The position numbers and the translations under genes were made by a program. 64,000 nucleotides of DNA, taken from assembly GCA_015061805.1 (NCBI GenBank), contig SUVV01000004.1, positions 1 to 64,000 of the forward strand, written 5' to 3'. Below are positions 272 through 11,649 of the stretch, piece after piece; within the stretch, counting starts at the first letter, position 1, and the number at the start of each line of letters is the position of its first letter. The notes below the pieces were generated by a model that did no database searches, was not told the DNA's origin, and saw only the letters and a program-made list of their open reading frames with translations. This DNA is from Lentisphaerota bacterium. Its GTDB lineage: Bacteria > Verrucomicrobiota > Lentisphaeria > Victivallales > Victivallaceae.

Positions 272-833
272 TCTTCTGTGTTCCAGTTCCCGATATCTGC
301 GTTTTCTCCATCTCCACCGGGCTGTCCATCAGCTCCATAACTGATAATGTCAAATTCGCCGTGCGCGCGAGATTTTGAAACGCCGCCTTGGTTGCACCGT
401 AAACAGCCAGCCGTCCGGCAGGTTTTACGCCGTTGACACTGCTGACAAAGATTATTCTGCCATAATTTTTCTTCTGCATTTCAGGAAAAAGTTTATTGAG
501 CAGTATGCCGGTACTCAAAACATTGGTATCAAACATTTTCCGGTATTCTGACTCCGCAAAGTTCCCGATGCCGGTATAACTCTGATATGAGGCATTCAGC
601 ACCAGAATATCCGGTACCATATTTTGAGAAATCAATTCATCGGCAAACGTTCCAACCGCTTCTGCATCACTCAAATCCACACCGAAAAAAGGTGAATTCC
701 CGGCGGCGGCAAGCAGTTTGTCACTCACCTTGGAAGCGTGATAAATCACCTGACATCCGGCATTTTCCAGTTCTTTAGCCGCGGCAAGTCCGATTCCCCG
801 GCTGGAACCGGTAACCAATGCAATTTTTTTCAT
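162..833 (-). pseudogene. Short-chain dehydrogenase/reductase, C-terminus replaced
   Basis: About 158 residues of a classical NAD(P)-dependent SDR are present: TGSSRGIG nucleotide-binding motif near residue 8, LNAS, the catalytic Ser in VSSV and YGATK with the active-site Tyr/Lys. Just after AFQNLARTA the similarity stops. The frame then runs through gspG/gspH DNA for about 65 unrelated residues to a stop at 162. The missing segment would hold the substrate loop and last strands of the Rossmann fold, so activity is doubtful. The ATG at 833 overlaps the stop of the upstream lactonase-like gene (ATGA), placing it last in the IclR/GH10 operon. It probably reduced or oxidised a sugar-acid intermediate. 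Confidence 0.75.
268..360 (-). pseudogene. C-terminal remnant of major pseudopilin GspG
   Basis: Reading the minus strand in the frame that ends at TGA 270-268 gives 29 codons beginning EFDIISYGADGQPGG and ending in ADIGNW plus four residues. This is the highly conserved calcium-binding C-terminal end of GspG, the major type II secretion pseudopilin. Nothing of the rest of gspG precedes it; upstream the DNA is the reading frame of a short-chain dehydrogenase. The fragment lies in a different frame from the dehydrogenase, so it is not translated unless by frameshift. It is a rearrangement or assembly scar, joined near base 358. Confidence 0.8.
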
Positions 834-1627
834 AAGTAAAACTCCTTTCCTGCTTCGGGAAGCAAAGTTTTCATGCCGAGTTTTTCGCAATACTCAATCG
901 TGACCGGTTCAGCCGGATCGTTCCCGGCAAACATCTTTATATGGCACGGAATAAGCAGTTCAGCTCCGCAAGACTGCGCCAGACAAACGGCTTCATCAAT
1001 ATCCATATTTCCGGCAATGCCCATTGCATGACGTGCCTCATCGCGTCCATTTGCCGGCAGACACATAATCAATTTTGCACCCGACGGAAGATTCCGCAAA
1101 ATTGCGGCATCCTGTCCCGGATATGGTACTGTATCTCCACCGAAAAACACCGAAATATTTTCTTTACGGAAGTTGACAAGGAAACTCACGGATTTGTATT
1201 CACCATTTTCATCGGTTTCCAGAGTTTCATGGGCGGCGGGAATGGTATGCAGTTCAATTCCCGCAGTTAATTCAACCATTTTTCCCGTTGAGACAAATTC
1301 AAACTTTTCAGCTTTTTCAGACAAATACTGTTCGATCTTTCCCCGGCAGTCTCCCGGACAGAAAAAGCGGCAATCCGGATTATTCGTCATTACCGGAATG
1401 ATCGTTTCCGGGTCAAAGTGATCAGCGTGGCAATGGGTGATAAGGTACCAATCCACTTTCAAATCAGCCGGATCCCGGACAATGGGAGTTCCGCGCGTGT
1501 GGTCAAGTTTGCTCTTGAGTTTTGCACAGGAATCAGAGAGATAGGGGTCGGCAAGTAAAACCGTATCACCTGCCCTGACCAGAAATCCGCTCTGTCCGAG
1601 CCAGCAGAGTTTTATCTCATTTCCCAT
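830..1627 (-). CDS. Metallo-beta-lactamase-fold hydrolase, UlaG-like
   Basis: A 265-residue protein of the metallo-beta-lactamase fold. The metal motif THCHADH is at residues 64-70 (H65, H67, D69, H70), with further metal-binding candidates in FGGDT and in CHIKM near the C-terminus. The family includes UlaG, the L-ascorbate-6-phosphate lactonase, and other cytoplasmic lactonases and phosphodiesterases. There is no signal peptide. Its start overlaps the stop of the RraA-like gene (TGATG), and its stop overlaps the dehydrogenase start. Next to a sugar-acid dehydratase and an aldolase, a lactone-opening role is reasonable, but the exact substrate cannot be read from the sequence. Confidence 0.75.
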   Translation of the reverse strand: MGNEIKLCWLGQSGFLVRAGDTVLLADPYLSDSCAKLKSKLDHTRGTPIVRDPADLKVDWYLITHCHADHFDPETIIPVMTNNPDCRFFCPGDCRGKIEQYLSEKAEKFEFVSTGKMVELTAGIELHTIPAAHETLETDENGEYKSVSFLVNFRKENISVFFGGDTVPYPGQDAAILRNLPSGAKLIMCLPANGRDEARHAMGIAGNMDIDEAVCLAQSCGAELLIPCHIKMFAGNDPAEPVTIEYCEKLGMKTLLPEAGKEFYL

Positions 1628-2382
1628 CAGAAATATCCGCCTTTGTCAATGATTTCACTGATGGTGTCGCCCTGCCGCACCCAGGAGAAAATATCAACTT
1701 CATTGCGTTCAATTCCTTCGGCACGCAGCAGCACATCGTAGGCGATTTCGCGCGGAATGCACAGGACGCCGTCAATGTCACCAAAAATAATATCTCCCGG
1801 ACGGACGGTCACTTTGCCGATCTTTACCGGAACCTGATAATGGGTGATCATACAGCGTCCGAGCGAACCGTTGGAAGTACGGTACTTGTAGAATATCGGA
1901 AAATCCTGTTCCAGAATCTGCTTGGTATCGCGGATACCTCCGGCGATGACTGCGCCCCGGATACCCTTGCTGATGGCGGTCGCTGTCATCACGCCACCCC
2001 ACAAACTCGCTTCGACATCATTGGAGGTATCCCAGACCACGACTCCCTCCGGCTTGAAGTCATCAAGCATTTGGGCGCGGAAGGTCATTTCGCCTTCGAT
2101 CATCACATTGGGAGCGCTTTTAACGGTAAAGGCTTCACCGCAAACGGTCATTTCATCGCGCAGCGGCATAATGTCGCTGGGGAGATTCTGGTCAAGCAGA
2201 GTATATTCGCGCATGACATCGTTGATACATCCGGTGTAGAGTTTTTCGTAGCGTTCGCACAGCTCTTTTATGGGAATAGGGATCTCGCAATTCGGGATCC
2301 GCTGGCGGACGGCAATAAGTTTATCCAGTTTCATCAAACCGGCTTCTTTGGCTTTTTCTCTCATATCTTTAAGTGACGGCAT
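1627..2382 (-). CDS. RraA-family aldolase/decarboxylase-like protein
   Basis: 251 residues of the RraA/HMG-aldolase fold. The signature GGIRDT (R151, D152) and the downstream GDIDGVLCIP stretch, which bind the divalent metal and the pyruvoyl part of the substrate in 4-hydroxy-4-methyl-2-oxoglutarate aldolases and oxaloacetate decarboxylases, are intact. An N-terminal extension of about 45 residues precedes the core, as in members found in sugar catabolic operons. A good Shine-Dalgarno (GAGGAG) precedes the ATG. It follows the enolase-superfamily gene by about 25 bases and overlaps the next gene by one base. It likely splits or decarboxylates a 2-keto acid made by the dehydratase; it is not expected to be the RNase E regulator. 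Confidence 0.75.
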   Translation of the reverse strand: MPSLKDMREKAKEAGLMKLDKLIAVRQRIPNCEIPIPIKELCERYEKLYTGCINDVMREYTLLDQNLPSDIMPLRDEMTVCGEAFTVKSAPNVMIEGEMTFRAQMLDDFKPEGVVVWDTSNDVEASLWGGVMTATAISKGIRGAVIAGGIRDTKQILEQDFPIFYKYRTSNGSLGRCMITHYQVPVKIGKVTVRPGDIIFGDIDGVLCIPREIAYDVLLRAEGIERNEVDIFSWVRQGDTISEIIDKGGYF

Positions 2383-2407
2383 AATAAAATCTCCTCAAAT
2401 AAATATT

Positions 2408-3721
2408 TTATGACCATTGACGGTCGTTGGACCACTCTTTGTCCCAGCACGAAGTATCGCCCCATGCTTCGGGGAATTCGGGGTGGAGTTTCTCTTTTAT
2501 CAAATCTTCGTTGAGAGCTTCGATACCAAGTCCGGGACGGTTGGGAACTTCAATAAATCCGCCGTCGTACTTGAGCGCAGGAATGACGAGGTCGCCCCAC
2601 CACGGTACATCGACACTGTGAAGTTCCAAACTCATAAAGTTGCGTGTCGCGGCGGCAACATGGACGGCGGCGAGACAGGCAATGGGACTTTCTGCCATGT
2701 GGATATTCATCTGGGCGCCGTATTCTTCAGCCATGTCGCCGATCTTTTTGGTTTCCAGAATACCACCGGCAGTGAGGATATCCGGGTGGATAACGGCAAG
2801 TGCACCGGATTCAAGCAGCGGTTTGAAGCCCTCTTTCAAATAGATATCTTCGCCCGTTCCCAACGGCACGGTAGTCGCATTATGAAGCTGAACCCACTGT
2901 TGAGTCATCTGCCACGGGACCGCATCTTCCATCCAGGCAAGGTTGTATTTTTCCAGACGGCGGGCAAGTTTGATGCAGTCTTCCAAAGGAATGTGTCCGA
3001 GGTGGTCAATGGCGATGGGAACTTCGTAACCGACTTCAGCGCGGACATCTGCCATATACTGTTCCAGATAATCGAGTCCGACTTCCGTAAGGTGGATGCC
3101 GGTAAAGGGGTGCGCGGTATTAAAAAGATCATACGCCGCACCGCGCATGGCGGATGGATTGATGGAACCATGCGGAGTTTTGAATACCTGCTTGTATTCC
3201 TTCATCGTTTCGATGAAGCCCAGCGGCGCAGAGAGCGCGCCGGGAACATTCATCAGAAGTTCGATGCCCAAATCCATTTTGAGGAAAGTGAACCCCTGCG
3301 CCATACGCGCTTTGAGCGCTTTTCCCATGTCGCTGCCGTGACCTTCACTGTCGGTATCGCAATAGCAGCGGATCTTATCGCGGAATTTGCCTCCCAATAA
3401 CTGCCAGACCGGGACGCCCCAGACTTTACCGGCAATATCCCAGCAGGCAACTTCAATGGCGCACACGCCACCGGCTTGCCGGGAATCTCCGCCAAACTGT
3501 TTGATGCGGCGGAAAACTTTTTCTACGTTACAGGGATTTTCACCGATGATGCGGCTTTTGAGCATAGCGGCATAGGTGGCACTGGAAGCATCTCGCACTT
3601 CTCCGTAACCGACGATGCCCTGATTGGTGTAAAGTTTCACCAATGTACACCGCTTGGGCGCGCCGTCGATTTCGGCGAAGCGCATATCGGTGATTTTCAA
3701 TGTTGACGGGTCGATTTTCAT
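2408..3721 (-). CDS. Mandelate racemase/muconate lactonizing family dehydratase
   Basis: 437 residues of the enolase superfamily. An N-terminal capping domain (1-130) is followed by a beta/alpha barrel. Probable Mg ligands are D239 (IAIDH), E265 (WMED) and E291 (GTGED); K148 in FLKMD and D314 in IHPD are candidate acid/base residues. In this family the reaction is usually syn/anti dehydration or racemisation of an aldonic or uronic acid. An insert at about 153-205 between strands is longer than in many members. The gene sits directly below the two GH10 genes with a Shine-Dalgarno (AAGGA). Its first ten codons also occur, fused to iclR sequence, in the scar at 5161-5220. Confidence 0.8.
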   Translation of the reverse strand: MKIDPSTLKITDMRFAEIDGAPKRCTLVKLYTNQGIVGYGEVRDASSATYAAMLKSRIIGENPCNVEKVFRRIKQFGGDSRQAGGVCAIEVACWDIAGKVWGVPVWQLLGGKFRDKIRCYCDTDSEGHGSDMGKALKARMAQGFTFLKMDLGIELLMNVPGALSAPLGFIETMKEYKQVFKTPHGSINPSAMRGAAYDLFNTAHPFTGIHLTEVGLDYLEQYMADVRAEVGYEVPIAIDHLGHIPLEDCIKLARRLEKYNLAWMEDAVPWQMTQQWVQLHNATTVPLGTGEDIYLKEGFKPLLESGALAVIHPDILTAGGILETKKIGDMAEEYGAQMNIHMAESPIACLAAVHVAAATRNFMSLELHSVDVPWWGDLVIPALKYDGGFIEVPNRPGLGIEALNEDLIKEKLHPEFPEAWGDTSCWDKEWSNDRQWS

Positions 3722-3734
3722 AATATGATTTTCC

Positions 3735-5066
3735 TTATTCCACAGTTATAATAAATTCATTGAACGAGTGTTTGCTCAATTCGACCGTCCGGGTGAAAGT
3801 TCCATTACCGGTGGTGATTTCCGCTTCATATTCACCATAGAAACCATGGAACCGGTTGTCGCCTCCGGCACAGTATTCGACGGTGGTTGCGGTGTGCCAC
3901 TCTTCATTGAGCAGACGGCGCAGCACTTTGCACGCTTTTTTATCGGTGAAGTCGTAATTGACCAGTCCGGCGCGCAGACTGTTCTGGCCCTGTTCGCTGC
4001 CCAATGGAGCATTGGCGGCGGTTCCGTCAACGAGGTTCCACCAGACTATCGCTTCGGTGGCGGGGTGGCTGAACCACAAACGGTAGAGCCGTTCCAGAGC
4101 CTGCGCCTGAAATTCGTCGCCGTCGCCCAGCGTGCGACAGGAAAGCAGGCTTACTTCAGATATATTCAGCGGGATGCCCAGTTTGGCATACTGGTCAAAA
4201 ATGCGCCAGACCCAGCGCGGAGACAGCGGGCGGTTTACGTTCATACAGTTGTCATTTTTCATATAGTTGAACATATGATACTGCAATCCCAGACCATCGA
4301 CCTGACAACCGTGTTCGATAAGGCTTTGCACCAGAAGATAGACGGGGCTGTAGTCGCCCTGATAATTCCACCAGTTGCGGTCATCGTTGTAAATTTTCTG
4401 ATTGCAGGGAAAGAATCTTGCCGCCAGTTTGAAACAGCGGTCAACATAATCGTCCGGAAGCATGAGTTTCCCCTGCCGCAGACCGGGGTTACGGTTTTGG
4501 GTTTCATTGACCACGTCCCAAATCGGGATAATATCAGCGTAACGCTCTGAAATTTCTTCAAAACGTTTGGCGAGCAGTTCCATGACTTTACGGCTGTTCT
4601 GCGGAGCCCATTCCGGGGTAAAATGGTGCCAGCACAGGGGATGACCTTTCGGGGTGATGTTGTATTTTTTGCAGAACTCCAACACCCGGTCGGGAGCAGG
4701 GCGGCGGTAGATAAAGGGGGAATCTTTAGTAAAGCGCACCTTGCCCTGTTCCGGTTCGAGATCACTCCAGTAGAAAGGAACGACCGCCAGATTGAAGAGA
4801 GAGGCAAAAGTTTCTTCATACTGCTGATTCTGCTCCGCTTCCGGAAAGGAGTCGATCATAAAGGCGTTGCATCCGAACTTGTATTCGTGACTTTTTTGTT
4901 TGAGTTTGATCGTGGCTCCGGAAATCTCTTCGCCGGAAGAGTTCCGCAGAGAAAAGTGCCCGAAGCCTTTGCGGTACATTTCAGTACCATATTTTATCTT
5001 AAAGTCGATCTCGCTGTCCTCTTTGAGCAGAAACCCCAGATAATTTTGTGCTTCTTCACTGAACAT
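3735..5066 (-). CDS. GH10 xylanase-like glycoside hydrolase, copy 1
   Basis: 443 residues. After an N-terminal beta-sandwich-like region (about 25-65) comes a GH10 barrel: HPLCWHH (142-148), WDVVNE with the acid/base E188, and ISEVSLL with the nucleophile E304. GH10 enzymes cleave beta-1,4-xylan with retention of configuration. There is no signal peptide, so it is predicted to be cytoplasmic and to act on imported xylo-oligosaccharides or substituted glycosides. A strong Shine-Dalgarno (AAGGAG) precedes the ATG. It is a close paralogue of the gene at 5234-6562, with most residues identical by eye, and lies between the duplication scar and the dehydratase gene. Confidence 0.85.
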   Translation of the reverse strand: MFSEEAQNYLGFLLKEDSEIDFKIKYGTEMYRKGFGHFSLRNSSGEEISGATIKLKQKSHEYKFGCNAFMIDSFPEAEQNQQYEETFASLFNLAVVPFYWSDLEPEQGKVRFTKDSPFIYRRPAPDRVLEFCKKYNITPKGHPLCWHHFTPEWAPQNSRKVMELLAKRFEEISERYADIIPIWDVVNETQNRNPGLRQGKLMLPDDYVDRCFKLAARFFPCNQKIYNDDRNWWNYQGDYSPVYLLVQSLIEHGCQVDGLGLQYHMFNYMKNDNCMNVNRPLSPRWVWRIFDQYAKLGIPLNISEVSLLSCRTLGDGDEFQAQALERLYRLWFSHPATEAIVWWNLVDGTAANAPLGSEQGQNSLRAGLVNYDFTDKKACKVLRRLLNEEWHTATTVEYCAGGDNRFHGFYGEYEAEITTGNGTFTRTVELSKHSFNEFIITVE

Positions 5067-5089
5067 AATAAAATCTCCTTGTATATATT

Positions 5090-5233
5090 ATATGGATTCA
5101 CATTGTTCGGCTGCCTGATGTAATACCGACCACTGTCAAGGCGGCGATCACCCGGCGTTACCGGTCGTGCAGCGGAATGGAACCGGCGGCGATCTTCAAC
5201 GTTGCAGGATCGATTTTCATAACATGATTTTCC
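5090..5233 (-). pseudogene. Duplication scar: start of dehydratase gene fused to tail of iclR
   Basis: On the minus strand from 5220 an ATG opens a 20-codon frame, MKIDPATLKI then AAGSIPLHDR, followed by TAA. The first half equals the start of the dehydratase at 3721 (MKIDPSTLKI); the second equals the IclR regulator just after its RWN-I (IAAGSIPLHDR). Past the stop, the DNA still resembles iclR (an RR-I/V-AALTV stretch) before it decays. Bases 5221-5233 repeat the spacer between copy 1 and the dehydratase. This is what a tandem duplication of the block iclR-3' / GH10 / dehydratase-5' leaves behind. Confidence 0.85.
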
Positions 5234-6562
5234 TTATTCCACAGTTATAATAAATTCATTGAACGAGTGTTTGCTCAATTCGATCGTCCGGTGGAAAGTT
5301 CCATTACCGGTGGTGATTTCCGCTTCATATTCACCATAGAAACCATGGAACCGGTTGTCGCCTCCGACACAGTATTCGACGATGGTTGCGGTGTGCCACT
5401 CTTCATTGAGCAGACGGCGCAGCACTTTACACGCCTTTTTGTCGGTGAAGTCATAATTGACCAGCCCTGCCCGCAGACGGTTTTCGCCATCTTCGCTTCC
5501 CATGGGTGCGTATGCAGCGGTACCGTCAACAAGATTCCACCAGATGATCGCTTCGGTAGCCGGATGGCTGAACCACAACCGATAAAGTCTTTCCAAAGCC
5601 AGTGCCTGAAATTCATCACCATCTCCCAAACTGCGGCAGGAGAGCAGGCTGACTTCGGACATATTCAGAGGAATATTGAGCTTGGCATACTGATCGAGAG
5701 CGCGCCAGACAGCCCGGGGAGAGAGCGGACGGTTGAAACCGATAGCGTTATCATTGAGCATATTGGCGAACATATGATACTGCAGACCGAGCCCATCGAC
5801 CTGACAACCGTGTTCCATAAGAGTTTTCACCAGCAAATAGACCGGAGTATAATCTCCCTGATAATTCCACCAGGAAATATCATCGTTATAAATTTTTTGA
5901 TTGCACGGGAAATATTTTTCTGCAAGTTTGAAGCAGCGTTCAACATGGTCGTCCGGCAGACTTTCGGTCAAACGCACGCCTGGATGCCGGGTCTGCGCCT
6001 CATTGACCACGTCCCAAATCGGGATAATATCAGCGTAACGCTCTGAAATTTCTTCAAAACGTTTGGCGAGCAGTTTCATGACTTCACGGCTGTTCTTCGG
6101 TGCCCATTCCGGGGTAAAATGGTGCCAGCACAAAGGATGCCCTTTGGGAGTGATATTATATTTGCGGCAGAATTCCAGAACCCGGTCGGGCGCGGGGCGG
6201 CGGTAGATAAAAGGGGAATCCACGCCGAAACGCGGCTTTCCCGGCTCCGGTTCAAGGTCGCTCCAGTAAAATGGTACTACTGCAAGATTGAAAATAGAGG
6301 CAAAAGTTTCTTCATATTGCTGATTTTGCTCCGCTTCGGGAAAGGAGTCGATCATAAAGGCGTTGCATCCGAACTTATATTCGTGATTTTTCTGTTTCAA
6401 TTTGATCGTTGCACCGGGGATGTCATTACCGTCTTTATCCCGCAGAGTAAAGTGGCCGAATCCCTTACGGTACATTTCTGTACCATATTTGATTTTGAAA
6501 TCGAGTTCGGAATCTTCTTTAAGCAGAGAATTCAAATACTTTTCAGCTTCTTCTGTAAACAT
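5234..6562 (-). CDS. GH10 xylanase-like glycoside hydrolase, copy 2
   Basis: 442 residues, aligned end to end with copy 1. It has the same HPLCWHH and WDVVNE motifs (the next residue is A instead of T) and the nucleophile in MSEVSLL. Differences cluster at about residues 190-205 (the loop after the acid/base) and 265-290, which line the substrate cleft in GH10 enzymes, so the copies may differ in preference. The last 60 codons and the 3' flank are almost identical to copy 1. It starts 12 bases after the iclR stop with an AAAGG Shine-Dalgarno and no signal peptide. It represents the original junction with iclR, while copy 1 keeps the original junction with the dehydratase gene. Confidence 0.85.
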   Translation of the reverse strand: MFTEEAEKYLNSLLKEDSELDFKIKYGTEMYRKGFGHFTLRDKDGNDIPGATIKLKQKNHEYKFGCNAFMIDSFPEAEQNQQYEETFASIFNLAVVPFYWSDLEPEPGKPRFGVDSPFIYRRPAPDRVLEFCRKYNITPKGHPLCWHHFTPEWAPKNSREVMKLLAKRFEEISERYADIIPIWDVVNEAQTRHPGVRLTESLPDDHVERCFKLAEKYFPCNQKIYNDDISWWNYQGDYTPVYLLVKTLMEHGCQVDGLGLQYHMFANMLNDNAIGFNRPLSPRAVWRALDQYAKLNIPLNMSEVSLLSCRSLGDGDEFQALALERLYRLWFSHPATEAIIWWNLVDGTAAYAPMGSEDGENRLRAGLVNYDFTDKKACKVLRRLLNEEWHTATIVEYCVGGDNRFHGFYGEYEAEITTGNGTFHRTIELSKHSFNEFIITVE

Positions 6563-6574
6563 AGTGTTTACCTT

Positions 6575-7312
6575 TCAATTAAAATTTTCACACTCATGTG
6601 CCGCCCCGCGCATCGCCCGGGAGAGCAGCGATAATTTATCATTGGAAAAGTCTTCCACATTACCCATCACGGTCAGAGCCGCAACGACCCGGCGTTCCCG
6701 GTCGTGCAATGGAATGGAACCTGCGGCGATGTTCCAGCGGTTCTTTTTAAGATTGAAAACGAAACCGTTTTCGCGTACCTCCTGTACCGAATTAATCAAC
6801 TGTTCCGGAACAGATTTCTCCGGGATATCCACCGTGCAGCGTGTCAGCAGTTCAAGAATGGTATCGTTGTCCTCCCGGTAGAGCAGCGCGGCGCCCACAG
6901 AGCCTTCCACCACCGGGAAACTTGCCCCCACCTGCCCGGTCAGCGAAAACGGGCCCGGCGGTTCCGACCGCATGATGGTCGTCTGTTCATCGCCGCGGCG
7001 CAGCGATATTTTACAGGAAACATTGAGTTTCCGCGTTATATCATCCATCAAACCTTGCGCATGTTCAAATATCTGCATACTGCGGTAACAGTGATGCACC
7101 AGCGGCAGAATACCGTGATCCAGTTCATAACGCCCGGCATCATCTTTACGCACCCAGCGGTGTTTCAACAATGTCTGCAATATCCGATAAGCACTGCTCA
7201 TTGAAATCTGCAGTTTTTGGCGTATCTCACTTTGTGTAACTCCGCTGTCGGTACTGCTCATATACTCCAGTACAGCGATAGTATGTTCTACGGCGGGAAT
7301 CGTATTGTTCAT
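6575..7312 (-). CDS. IclR-family transcriptional regulator
   Basis: 245 residues: an N-terminal winged helix (about 1-65; SEIRQKLQISMSSAYRILQ is the recognition region) and a C-terminal effector-binding IclR domain (about 75-245). I chose the ATG at 7312 because a promoter lies at 7352-7380, so an in-frame ATG at 7402 would be upstream of transcription. It is the first gene of the GH10/sugar-acid operon and probably represses or activates it in response to a sugar acid. Two inverted repeats just upstream and over the start codon are likely its own operators. Part of its C-terminal coding sequence is repeated at 5090-5190. Confidence 0.85.
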   Translation of the reverse strand: MNNTIPAVEHTIAVLEYMSSTDSGVTQSEIRQKLQISMSSAYRILQTLLKHRWVRKDDAGRYELDHGILPLVHHCYRSMQIFEHAQGLMDDITRKLNVSCKISLRRGDEQTTIMRSEPPGPFSLTGQVGASFPVVEGSVGAALLYREDNDTILELLTRCTVDIPEKSVPEQLINSVQEVRENGFVFNLKKNRWNIAAGSIPLHDRERRVVAALTVMGNVEDFSNDKLSLLSRAMRGAAHECENFN

Positions 7313-7343
7313 ATTTGAACATCCTGTGTTATTTTTTGAACAC
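7306..7343 (-). promoter_or_regulatory. Two inverted repeats, candidate IclR operators
   Basis: Bases 7306-7321 form TGTTCA-N4-TGAACA, overlapping the iclR start codon. Bases 7326-7343 form GTGTT-N8-AACAC at the predicted transcription start. The TGTTCA/GAACA core is shared. The position downstream of the -10 box fits autorepression. Confidence 0.5.
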
Positions 7344-7351
7344 CTTTCATT

Positions 7352-7380
7352 ACTATAGCCTTTGCAAAAGATTTTGTCAA
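7352..7380 (-). promoter_or_regulatory. Promoter of the iclR/GH10 operon
   Basis: On the minus strand: TTGACA (7375-7380), a 17-base spacer and TATAGT (7352-7357). Transcription should start near 7345, about 33 bases before the iclR ATG. Confidence 0.7.
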
Positions 7381-7402
7381 TAATATTTCGCAAATATTTC
7401 AT

Positions 7403-7662
7403 AATTTTTCTATACTATGCAATCAGGATTCTTGTTGGCAGCAAACTGGGGTAGTTCCATTTTCATAGAGTGTCATTTTTTGAGCACTCCTACGCCTCCT
7501 TGAATCACCTGCAAGGTATCAATCTTTCCAGTGCAGGAATGACGGTGACGGACGGAAAGCAGTTGCTTCATCTGCCGACACCGCTGTCTCTTACTAAAGA
7601 GGTCACAATACCGTTTCCGTCTGCTCTGTTAGTGGCGTAGCGTAATCCCCGGTGCTGATGCG
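7403..7662 (+). other. Gene-poor relic stretch, with a 33-codon open frame at 7539-7640
   Basis: No intact gene. A plus-strand frame starting at ATG 7539 (MTVTDGKQLLHLPTPLSL, continuing to a stop at 7640) reads like the end of a protein but has no recognisable family. It is followed, after a frame change, by the fragment at 7663. I read the stretch as the remains of a larger mobile or phage-type gene. Confidence 0.35.
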
Positions 7663-7854
7663 TTGAATTACTGTATCACGCTGGATGAACTCAACGCCCA
7701 CGTTGAAGAGTTCCGGAACAGGCTCAAGTTGCTGCTGGATGAATCTGCTGCACTTACCCGCAAGGTCAAAGAGGTTGCACTCGTTCAGAAGCAAAAGGAA
7801 CGCGACTTCATCCAAGCCCGCCGTGCCATTGAACGCATCCGCATGGCGATTTAA
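7663..7854 (+). pseudogene. Short helical protein fragment, unknown
   Basis: A 63-codon frame that would begin with TTG and has no Shine-Dalgarno. The product is strongly helical with heptad-like spacing (LDELNAHVEEFRNRLKLLL, then KEVALVQKQKERDFIQ) and looks like a coiled-coil piece. The frame is open some codons upstream until a TAG, and the adjacent upstream frame (7539-7640) could be its missing front after one frameshift. I do not recognise a family. It ends just before the convergent nucleotidyltransferase gene. Confidence 0.35.
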
Positions 7855-8303
7855 GAATTCTGCTGATTTTGCTTTTTGATTGTCAGAAAGAGAATATCGT
7901 CAGAATCTTTATCACGAGCTACGGCTTGTTTTGAACTCAACAAGTCATCTAAATTCAAGTATTTAACCGGGACGCCGTTGTAATCACAGGTAATTGATCG
8001 AGCTTCGACTATTGCAAACTTCGGCAAGCCGGGCGGTGACAAATGGAATTGGATAATTCCGGCACGGGTTTGAAACGTTTGCACAAAACCTTCACCTGTC
8101 TGGATATCCAATTTCTCAACATCCATATCCAGTTCATCGGCAAGAGCAGCATTTATTTTGTCGAAATTTTCCTGATCAAATGGTGGTACAAAAATGTCCC
8201 AATCCAAGGTAAAGCGTGGCATTCCCTGCTGAAGCATAGCCTGTCCACCGATCACGATATAACGTACTCCGGCATCATTGAGACGTTTCAGCAGTGTTTC
8301 CAT
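7851..8303 (-). CDS. Nucleotidyltransferase-fold protein (possible toxin of a small gene pair)
   Basis: 150 residues with a minimal nucleotidyltransferase core: YIVIGGQAM (15-23) followed by the metal-binding DWD in FTLDWDIFV, and later the helix NLDDLLSSKQAVARDKDSDD. This layout is typical of the DUF6036/AbiEii-like group, in which many members are partners in toxin-antitoxin or abortive-infection pairs and others adenylylate or otherwise modify RNA or proteins. It overlaps the preceding 62-residue gene by 16 bases, so the two are co-translated. It lies among gene relics, which fits a recently acquired unit. Toxin function is inference. Confidence 0.7.
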   Translation of the reverse strand: METLLKRLNDAGVRYIVIGGQAMLQQGMPRFTLDWDIFVPPFDQENFDKINAALADELDMDVEKLDIQTGEGFVQTFQTRAGIIQFHLSPPGLPKFAIVEARSITCDYNGVPVKYLNLDDLLSSKQAVARDKDSDDILFLTIKKQNQQNS

Positions 8304-8476
8304 TTGATCCCACCCTTCGCCGCAATTTCTTTGAGATATTCAGTTTTCCAAGCATTCATTTCCTCATAGTTACGGAATGATTTTTTGGAAAATCCGGGCA
8401 GATTCAACGGCACCGGAAATTTCATTTTCGGTGGATTCTTCAACCAAAGCCGTATTTTCTGTTCACGAATATCCAT
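8288..8476 (-). CDS. Small 62-residue protein, partner of the nucleotidyltransferase
   Basis: MDIREQKIRLWLKN at the start and a lysine-rich C-terminus ending KWKHC. The ATG at 8476 has a very good Shine-Dalgarno (AAGGAG, 8 bases upstream), better than earlier starts in the frame. There is no known motif; a PPKMKFPVPLNLPGF segment around residues 16-30 looks like a docking or extended region rather than a DNA-binding domain. Small proteins encoded immediately before such nucleotidyltransferases often act as their antitoxin, which is the best guess here. Confidence 0.6.
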   Translation of the reverse strand: MDIREQKIRLWLKNPPKMKFPVPLNLPGFSKKSFRNYEEMNAWKTEYLKEIAAKGGIKWKHC

Positions 8477-8540
8477 AAACTGTACTCCTTCAAAGTTAAT
8501 ATAGCATATCTTTGCAAAAAAACAAGAAAGGTAATTTATT

Positions 8541-8693
8541 ATGTTGAAACTCAATGCAAGTTATTCCAAGAAAGTCCATGCCGAGGGCGAGTACACCTAC
8601 ATCGACAATGCCGAGCCGGAGCGTACCTTTATTCTTTCCGAAGATATCTGCGCGAGCATCGTTGGTCAGCAGCAGAATATCAGCATCTTTTGA
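8541..8693 (+). pseudogene. Truncated small protein of mobile-element type
   Basis: A 50-residue frame starts MLKLNASYSKKVHAEGEYT after an AAAGG Shine-Dalgarno. That N-terminus looks like the start of a family of short proteins I associate with phage- or plasmid-like islands, recalled rather than verified. From residue 20 on the sequence looks unrelated and ends early at TGA 8691-8693. The DNA up to 8830 has no convincing frame. Together with 7403-7854 it suggests a decayed element. Confidence 0.35.
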
Positions 8694-11533: not shown

Positions 11534-11539
11534 AATTTT

Positions 11540-11649
11540 GGGGGAAGGGAAAAACTTTTTTTCACGAGAAAAAAAGTTTTTCCCTTCCCCCAAACCCCCA
11601 TCCTTTTTCAAAAAAAGCGAGGATGTTTTGCTCCCGTTGGTCGCAAAAC
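11540..11649. repeat. Perfect 24-bp hairpin followed by two smaller hairpins
   Basis: Bases 11540-11563 and 11568-11591 are perfect inverse complements around a 4-base loop. Each arm runs from a G-rich or C-rich end to a T/A-rich end. CATCC at 11599-11603 pairs with GGATG at 11621-11625, and GTTTTGC at 11625-11631 pairs with GCAAAAC at 11643-11649. The cluster lies between convergent genes and could terminate both. The length and perfection of the first stem are more like a dispersed repeat unit than an ordinary terminator. Confidence 0.8.

Follow-up and report, generated by a model that had tools for sequence, protein, structure and literature searches.

Spontaneous tandem duplications between short homologies are common in bacteria, with Salmonella as an example (PMC3411829), merodiploids arise during natural transformation in S. 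pneumoniae (PMC3784515), and homology-facilitated illegitimate recombination has been documented in competent laboratory bacteria (PMC6382021). The locus that we have analysed carries a well-supported head-to-tail join of a block that extends from the middle of an iclR-type gene via a gene of the glycoside hydrolase family GH10 to the start of a dehydratase gene. It is located in a stretch of 64,000 nucleotides (contig C20:1-64000, from here on the window) from the 2.29 Mb draft genome of a Lentisphaerota bacterium, which is closely related to Lentisphaeria/Victivallales genomes that were assembled from samples of animal gut and other sources.

On the minus strand, the locus displays the gene order iclR, GH10 B, scar, GH10 A, an enolase-superfamily dehydratase, an RraA-like gene, a metallo-hydrolase and a short-chain dehydrogenase. 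The live iclR-type regulator (6575-7312, minus strand) matches Pfam families PF01614 and PF09339 above cut-off. Its open reading frame covers 6575-7402, within which we infer a probable start at 7312, downstream of a promoter-like TTGACA-17-TATAGT site at 7380-7352 (10 such sites occur in the window compared to 4.0 in shuffles). The upstream hydrolase GH10 B (5234-6562, minus strand; 442 residues; PF00331, E 3e-27) is intact and shows 92% identity to its counterpart in the related genome G003, 91% to G031, 89% to G018 and 85% to the downstream copy GH10 A (3735-5066, minus strand; 443 residues; PF00331, E 8.6e-29), which is intact as well. Between both copies lies the scar (5067-5233, minus strand), defined by its repeats, by alignment and by genus-wide comparison of junctions. 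The putative sugar-acid dehydratase (2408-3721, minus strand; PF13378 and PF02746), whose start is copied in the scar, has galactonate dehydratase as top NCBIfam match, at a score under the cut-off of that model. With family matches below curated cut-offs, the cluster looks like a regulator and hydrolases feeding a sugar-acid dehydratase/aldolase route. The leaders of the RraA-like gene (2380-2404) and of GH10 A (5064-5088) are 84% alike over 25 bases including the ribosome-binding site. At 7851-8554, adjoining the cluster, a DUF6036-type nucleotidyltransferase gene is accompanied by a small upstream partner frame without family match, a layout that resembles a toxin-antitoxin pair. An inverted repeat at 11537-11594, whose perfectly matching 27-base arms enclose a loop of 4 bases, is probably a dispersed repeat or a terminator, with similar stretches found at three sites in contig C51 of G003 and at one in contig C31 of G031.

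Read along the minus strand from 5233 to 5067, the scar opens with the ribosome-binding region and the first ten codons of the dehydratase gene and continues with iclR sequence from an ATC (5193-5191) that is shared by both genes and in phase 0 in both, so that the fusion is in frame. The resulting 20-codon frame (5220-5158, minus strand) reads MKIDPATLKIAAGSIPLHDR and then stops, and the scar is disrupted by this TAA (5160-5158) and by a net deletion of about 47 nucleotides further on, a hand count that depends on the alignment. The copied dehydratase start (5191-5220, minus strand; termed deh*), which ends at the shared ATC, agrees with the start of the resident dehydratase in 25 of 30 codon bases, as counted by eye, and the spacer matches too. 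Its agreement with the dehydratase starts of eight other genus genomes is 25-26 of 30, in a comparison of deh* and the iclR piece across genomes where the rows of the own genome matched the scar itself and provide no control, and where the rows of G052 and G057 (18/30 to deh*) missed the gene start. The colinear part of the iclR fragment (5124-5193, minus strand; termed iclR*) is in frame with deh* up to the TAA. Including the four bases preceding the ATC, it matches the resident iclR (6734-6661) in 60 of 74 bases and is equally distant from iclR of G031, G018 and G003 (59, 59 and 60 of 74). When aligned to iclR, the scar segment 5090-5200 reaches a local score of 78, compared to a top score of 29 among 1886 random segments of the window. 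A remnant of the iclR* C-terminus following the deletion may be recognized at 5088-5114 (minus strand), a weak reading by eye against relatives. The direct repeats are in register, with an offset of 1499 at the 3' end of GH10, 1496 at its 5' end and 1537 for the iclR piece. Codon 6 of deh* encodes Ala, as in the dehydratases of the genomes G023, G014, G028 and G013, compared to Ser in those of the own genome, G031, G018, G003 and G007 (by eye); at this single site, the Ala may be an old state or chance.

At the join, the dehydratase sequence TTGAAAATCACCG and the iclR sequence TGGAACATCGCCG agree in 10 of 13 bases with a longest perfect run of 3, in a comparison that uses present-day alleles and not those at the time of joining. 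Agreement in 10 of 13 bases or better is found for 186 of 943225 position pairs, and among 20000 random in-register junctions only 19 reach this level, so that the short homology at the join exceeds chance. A preliminary description of this DNA had proposed that ten dehydratase codons are fused at a shared ATC to iclR sequence that subsequently decays and that microhomology is found at the breakpoint, both of which agree with what we find. Its reading of the 20-codon frame as dead is supported as the most likely one.

Among 34 genus genomes, a match spanning the junction was detected in one, the own genome, in a search where for 9 of the 34, 24 of 26-40 candidate places were scored. The better matches of other genomes to the 167-base query are one-sided, covering either iclR (37-108 and 37-103) or the dehydratase (15-47, 14-47, 13-47 and 9-42), and the remaining ones are short and near chance. 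A search of 60 genomes including the own with GH10 B recovered matches at E ≤1e-30 in 19. Single-copy forms, which the preliminary description had suggested looking for, do exist: in all four relatives with the ordered locus on one contig (G031, G018, G052 and G057), a single GH10 gene resides between iclR and dehydratase. A further GH10 gene of about 40% identity is located downstream of the dehydratase in G018, G052 and G057, and a third of about 29% in G052 and G057. G003 stands outside this count, its locus being split across contigs at exactly this site. There, the contig with GH10 ends 16 bases past the stop codon, and the contig with the dehydratase opens with 139 bases of unrelated sequence, after which the same 116 bases follow, such that the last 116 bases of GH10 and spacer are found in two contexts (contigs C51 and C68), after the full GH10 and after the 139 unrelated bases. 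Part of the latter recurs at the end of contig C26, and the double context may reflect an insertion, a second truncated copy or a mixture of strains.

In G023, G014, G028 and G013, iclR directly adjoins the dehydratase with no GH10 between them, the iclR match has internal stops in three of these four genomes, and a GH10 relative (57%) is found further downstream in G014, G028 and G013. An origin of the scar from such iclR-dehydratase clusters, an idea raised by the Ala at codon 6, was rejected, with iclR* matching 42-44 of 70 bases there compared to 56-57 of 70 in G031, G018 and G003. When contigs of four relatives were aligned to the window, only the cluster at 357-7482 was matched, apart from short repeats. 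The cluster thus seems to occupy different genomic places among species, as judged from its right side, since the window begins at the contig start. In viral contigs, we found no instance of the exact junction pattern and confirmed no GH10 relatives. Plasmid records with a match numbered 85; their identity was 60-80% throughout, their coverage of the query stayed below 80%, and the five listed match only the dehydratase portion (16% of the query).

The trapped iclR piece bears on how the copies came to differ. Had it been dead from birth, changes would be expected at every codon position. Compared to the resident iclR, we instead count 9.5 changes at 20.5 synonymous sites and 3.5 at 48.5 nonsynonymous sites (Fisher p 0.0004), and the synonymous bias persists past the stop (6.5/10.7 vs 2.5/22.3, p 0.005). 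Towards iclR of G003, the bias is weaker, with 7.5 synonymous to 5.5 nonsynonymous changes (p 0.02). We simulated a self-duplication in which one branch is dead, assuming equal branch lengths and covering lengths of 0.2-0.6; a bias this strong was obtained in 8 of 4000 runs at a length of 0.2, in 1 of 4000 at 0.3 and in none of the 4000 runs each at 0.4, 0.5 and 0.6. The test rests on 69 bases. Of the 23 residues of the iclR piece, only 2 are private, one of which is the stop, so that the piece would have died recently, and it appears to derive from an iclR allele that was already unlike the one of today. This coding-type divergence of a dead fragment indicates that the alleles differed before the join or independently of it.

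The synonymous divergence between the GH10 copies that the preliminary description had suggested computing amounts to a dS of 0.86 at a dN of 0.098. For the adjacent dehydratase, the dS between the own genome and G031, G018 and G003 amounts to 0.17, 0.56 and 0.62. Elsewhere in the backbone, values towards relatives are 0.37-0.38 for a protein of 823 residues and 0.99-1.30 for LpxB, and from the latter it follows that the divergence of A and B is not beyond the oldest backbone value seen. In trees rooted on G052 and G057, a clade of A and B is rejected for the whole gene (p 0.011) and for codons 1-60 (p 0.019), 61-140 (p 0.003) and 181-360 (p 0.0001). The copies are consequently not each other's nearest relatives throughout, on the whole gene and in three of five segments. 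A and B do group in codons 141-180 (support 80/100, not starred), and for codons 365-443 the trees neither establish nor reject such a clade (p 0.45). Most other branches are moderately supported, and the limits of the segments were set after the identity profile had been seen, with the whole-gene test being independent of them. Along the gene, 156 informative sites are clustered by pattern, with values as low in 0 of 1000 permutations. In windows of 40 codons, GH10 B is 98% identical to G031 in the first, 97-99% to G018 in the next two and 95-100% to G003 in windows that start at codons 241-321. Between G003 and G031 themselves, identity is 98-100% in the windows that span codons 61-160 and 73-80% in parts elsewhere. 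GH10 is thus a recombinant mosaic across species, relatives included, and the pattern suggests that gut Lentisphaerota have heavily exchanged the iclR-GH10 part of the sugar-acid cluster. Copy A is nearer to G018 in codons 1-120 and to G031 in 241-360.

Two tracts depart from this divergence. One comprises 3711-3929 (minus strand) of GH10 A and its spacer, from about codon 380 to codon 4 of the dehydratase, which differs at 6 of 219 positions (97% identity) from its partner at 5210-5428 in copy B and its downstream spacer, with flanks that differ far more. The other (4527-4646, minus strand; codons ~141-180) is 94% identical to its partner at 6023-6142, and codons 121-180 contain 14 sites at which A and B agree with each other against the three relatives. 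The synonymous difference between the copies is 0 in codons 166-180 and 0.69 in codons 301-372, then 0.06 in 373-443. These tracts would either have arisen by gene conversion between A and B or be what is left of an original self-duplication after the rest of it had been overwritten.

Both copies look functional. They exceed the PF00331 cut-off of 22.1 with 96.1 and 101.2 bits, are intact and, as far as a dN/dS of about 0.11 tells, under purifying selection overall. E188 and E303, which we take to be the catalytic glutamates of GH10, are invariant in 12 of 12 aligned sequences. The closest match of GH10 B in the PDB is the beta-xylanase 8b73, with only 101 bits to this nearest solved chain. 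The proposal that the copies differ in loops of the cleft is upheld by the distribution of their residue differences, 27 of which fall on the 90 positions that directly follow six strands (15 residues each), compared to 22 on the 222 positions in the rest of 61-372 (p 2.6e-5), with a presumed, motif-based assignment of the barrel strands. Most of the differences follow WDVVNE (9) and QYHMF (7).

We consider it probable that the history of the locus combines a short-homology join with imported divergence, whether by direct joining of two haplotypes or by a self-duplication that was later partly overwritten. In either case, a tandem array of the 3' part of iclR, GH10 and the first ten dehydratase codons would have arisen in the own lineage by an illegitimate, head-to-tail event in the short homology between dehydratase start and mid-iclR. 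Two diverged haplotypes would now be present, Y (iclR-GH10B-deh*) and X (iclR*-GH10A-dehydratase), and most of the difference between A and B would stem from exchange between lineages instead of divergence in place. The most likely route, which we favour tentatively as the simplest fit, is a direct joining of an imported with the resident haplotype. DNA from an unsampled lineage may in this case have been joined in one step beside the resident copy, leaving a natural, fixed two-haplotype tandem. The junction, its absence from the other searched genomes, the coding-type divergence of iclR* and the mosaicism of GH10 are direct observations, from which the route itself is inferred. Against the combined explanation stand the tracts where A and B are alike (codons ~141-180 at 94%, and ~380-443 with spacer at 97%), as self-duplication predicts, the dS of LpxB (0.99-1.30), which exceeds that of A and B, and the reliance of the iclR* test on 69 bases and on equal branch lengths in the simulation. 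None of the searched genomes contained haplotype X, whose leaning is incoherent along the gene; from the split leaning of copy A it follows that X would itself be mixed. Homologues of ComEC and DprA are present in the genome, as they are in most of 14 control genomes (10 and 11, respectively), and their presence would permit DNA uptake without showing it; Ku was not found in the genome. The second route, which we regard as possible, assumes self-duplication in place, after which alleles of related species took over the dehydratase start, the upstream iclR and large parts of one or both GH10 copies, with two original tracts left. The same picture of diverged iclR* and GH10 units would be expected, mosaicism also in relatives without a known second copy (G003 and G031) suggests that replacement is common here, and the 14 sites shared by A and B in codons 121-180 are accounted for. 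Conversely, separate replacements would be required on both sides, in iclR and in the dehydratase start, and, on few sites, the leaning is towards G031 at the start of GH10 B and, weakly, in deh*, and towards G018 at the start of copy A, as two haplotypes would show.

Other explanations fare less well. The coding-type divergence of iclR* could be obtained without import at joining if two full iclR-GH10-dehydratase clusters had once been arranged in tandem and the DNA between codon 10 of the dehydratase and the middle of iclR had then been deleted, leaving the scar, which we consider unlikely, with two full tandem clusters present in no genome among the returned matches. The preliminary description had envisaged that the block was copied in tandem and that the copies, identical at birth, have since diverged. 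Its block limits, tandem join and junction stand, and such a plain self-duplication would also explain the single-copy relatives and the tracts of little synonymous difference (0 in codons 166-180, 0.06 in 373-443). Divergence in place from copies identical at birth is not supported: the iclR piece has changed like a working gene, with 3.5 nonsynonymous changes where about 16 would be expected at matching branch length, the clade of A and B is rejected on the whole gene and three of five segments of a mosaic GH10, and the synonymous difference changes abruptly between codons 301-372 (0.69) and 373-443 (0.06). Plain self-duplication is thus largely refuted by the coding-type divergence, and we rate it as very doubtful. 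In a draft genome of 34 contigs, with metagenome-assembled nearest relatives and an allelically diverse locus, alleles of two co-existing strains might have been chained into a false tandem. Yet the join contains 3 identical bases (10 of 13 alike), which is too short for an assembler to bridge, and the scar bears its own stop and deletion, making such an artefact highly improbable. Finally, the retained dehydratase ribosome-binding region and start codon and the in-frame fusion would suit a functional leader peptide or an RNA element that serves GH10 A. This idea was rejected as barely credible: folding is no better than in shuffles (z 0.40), no Rfam family is matched, the synonymous bias continues past the stop (6.5 vs 2.5), which a 20-residue peptide does not explain, and the element was not found in the other 33 genus genomes by the junction search. 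The scan for promoter-like sites detected no promoter for GH10 A on the minus strand within 5067-5233.

If direct joining of the imported and the resident haplotype is correct, a gut bacterium would have gained at once a second GH10 enzyme with a different set of cleft loops, which later exchange keeps shuffling. Tandem paralogues are often taken as cases of divergence after duplication. Here a trapped dead fragment serves as a clock, and the synonymous bias in a pseudogene scar offers a simple test of in-place versus imported divergence for other tandem pairs.

Compared to known systems, both copies share PF00331 with the xylanase-type GH10 family, their substrate being a putative one. A literature search that covered few subscription journals found no report of duplicated or mosaic xylanase genes from gut or rumen. 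The locus resembles the Salmonella duplications in its head-to-tail repeat and hybrid short-homology junction, whereas the Salmonella screen favours longer homology, with at least 11 bp at the duplication junctions that were judged true, compared to 3 contiguous bases within 10/13 and copies from diverged haplotypes in our case (PMC3411829). With the merodiploids of S. pneumoniae, it would share a tandem duplication during DNA exchange in which two different alleles are possible, but those are about 100-900 kb in size and repeat-driven, whereas the present one is 1.5 kb long with a short-homology junction and a putative uptake of DNA (PMC3784515). Homology-facilitated illegitimate recombination would be alike in the short-homology join of divergent donor DNA with a homology anchor elsewhere, a process that was observed in competent laboratory bacteria and would here have operated in a natural one (PMC6382021). 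The case belongs to the known short-homology tandem duplications, among which its junction is unusually readable.
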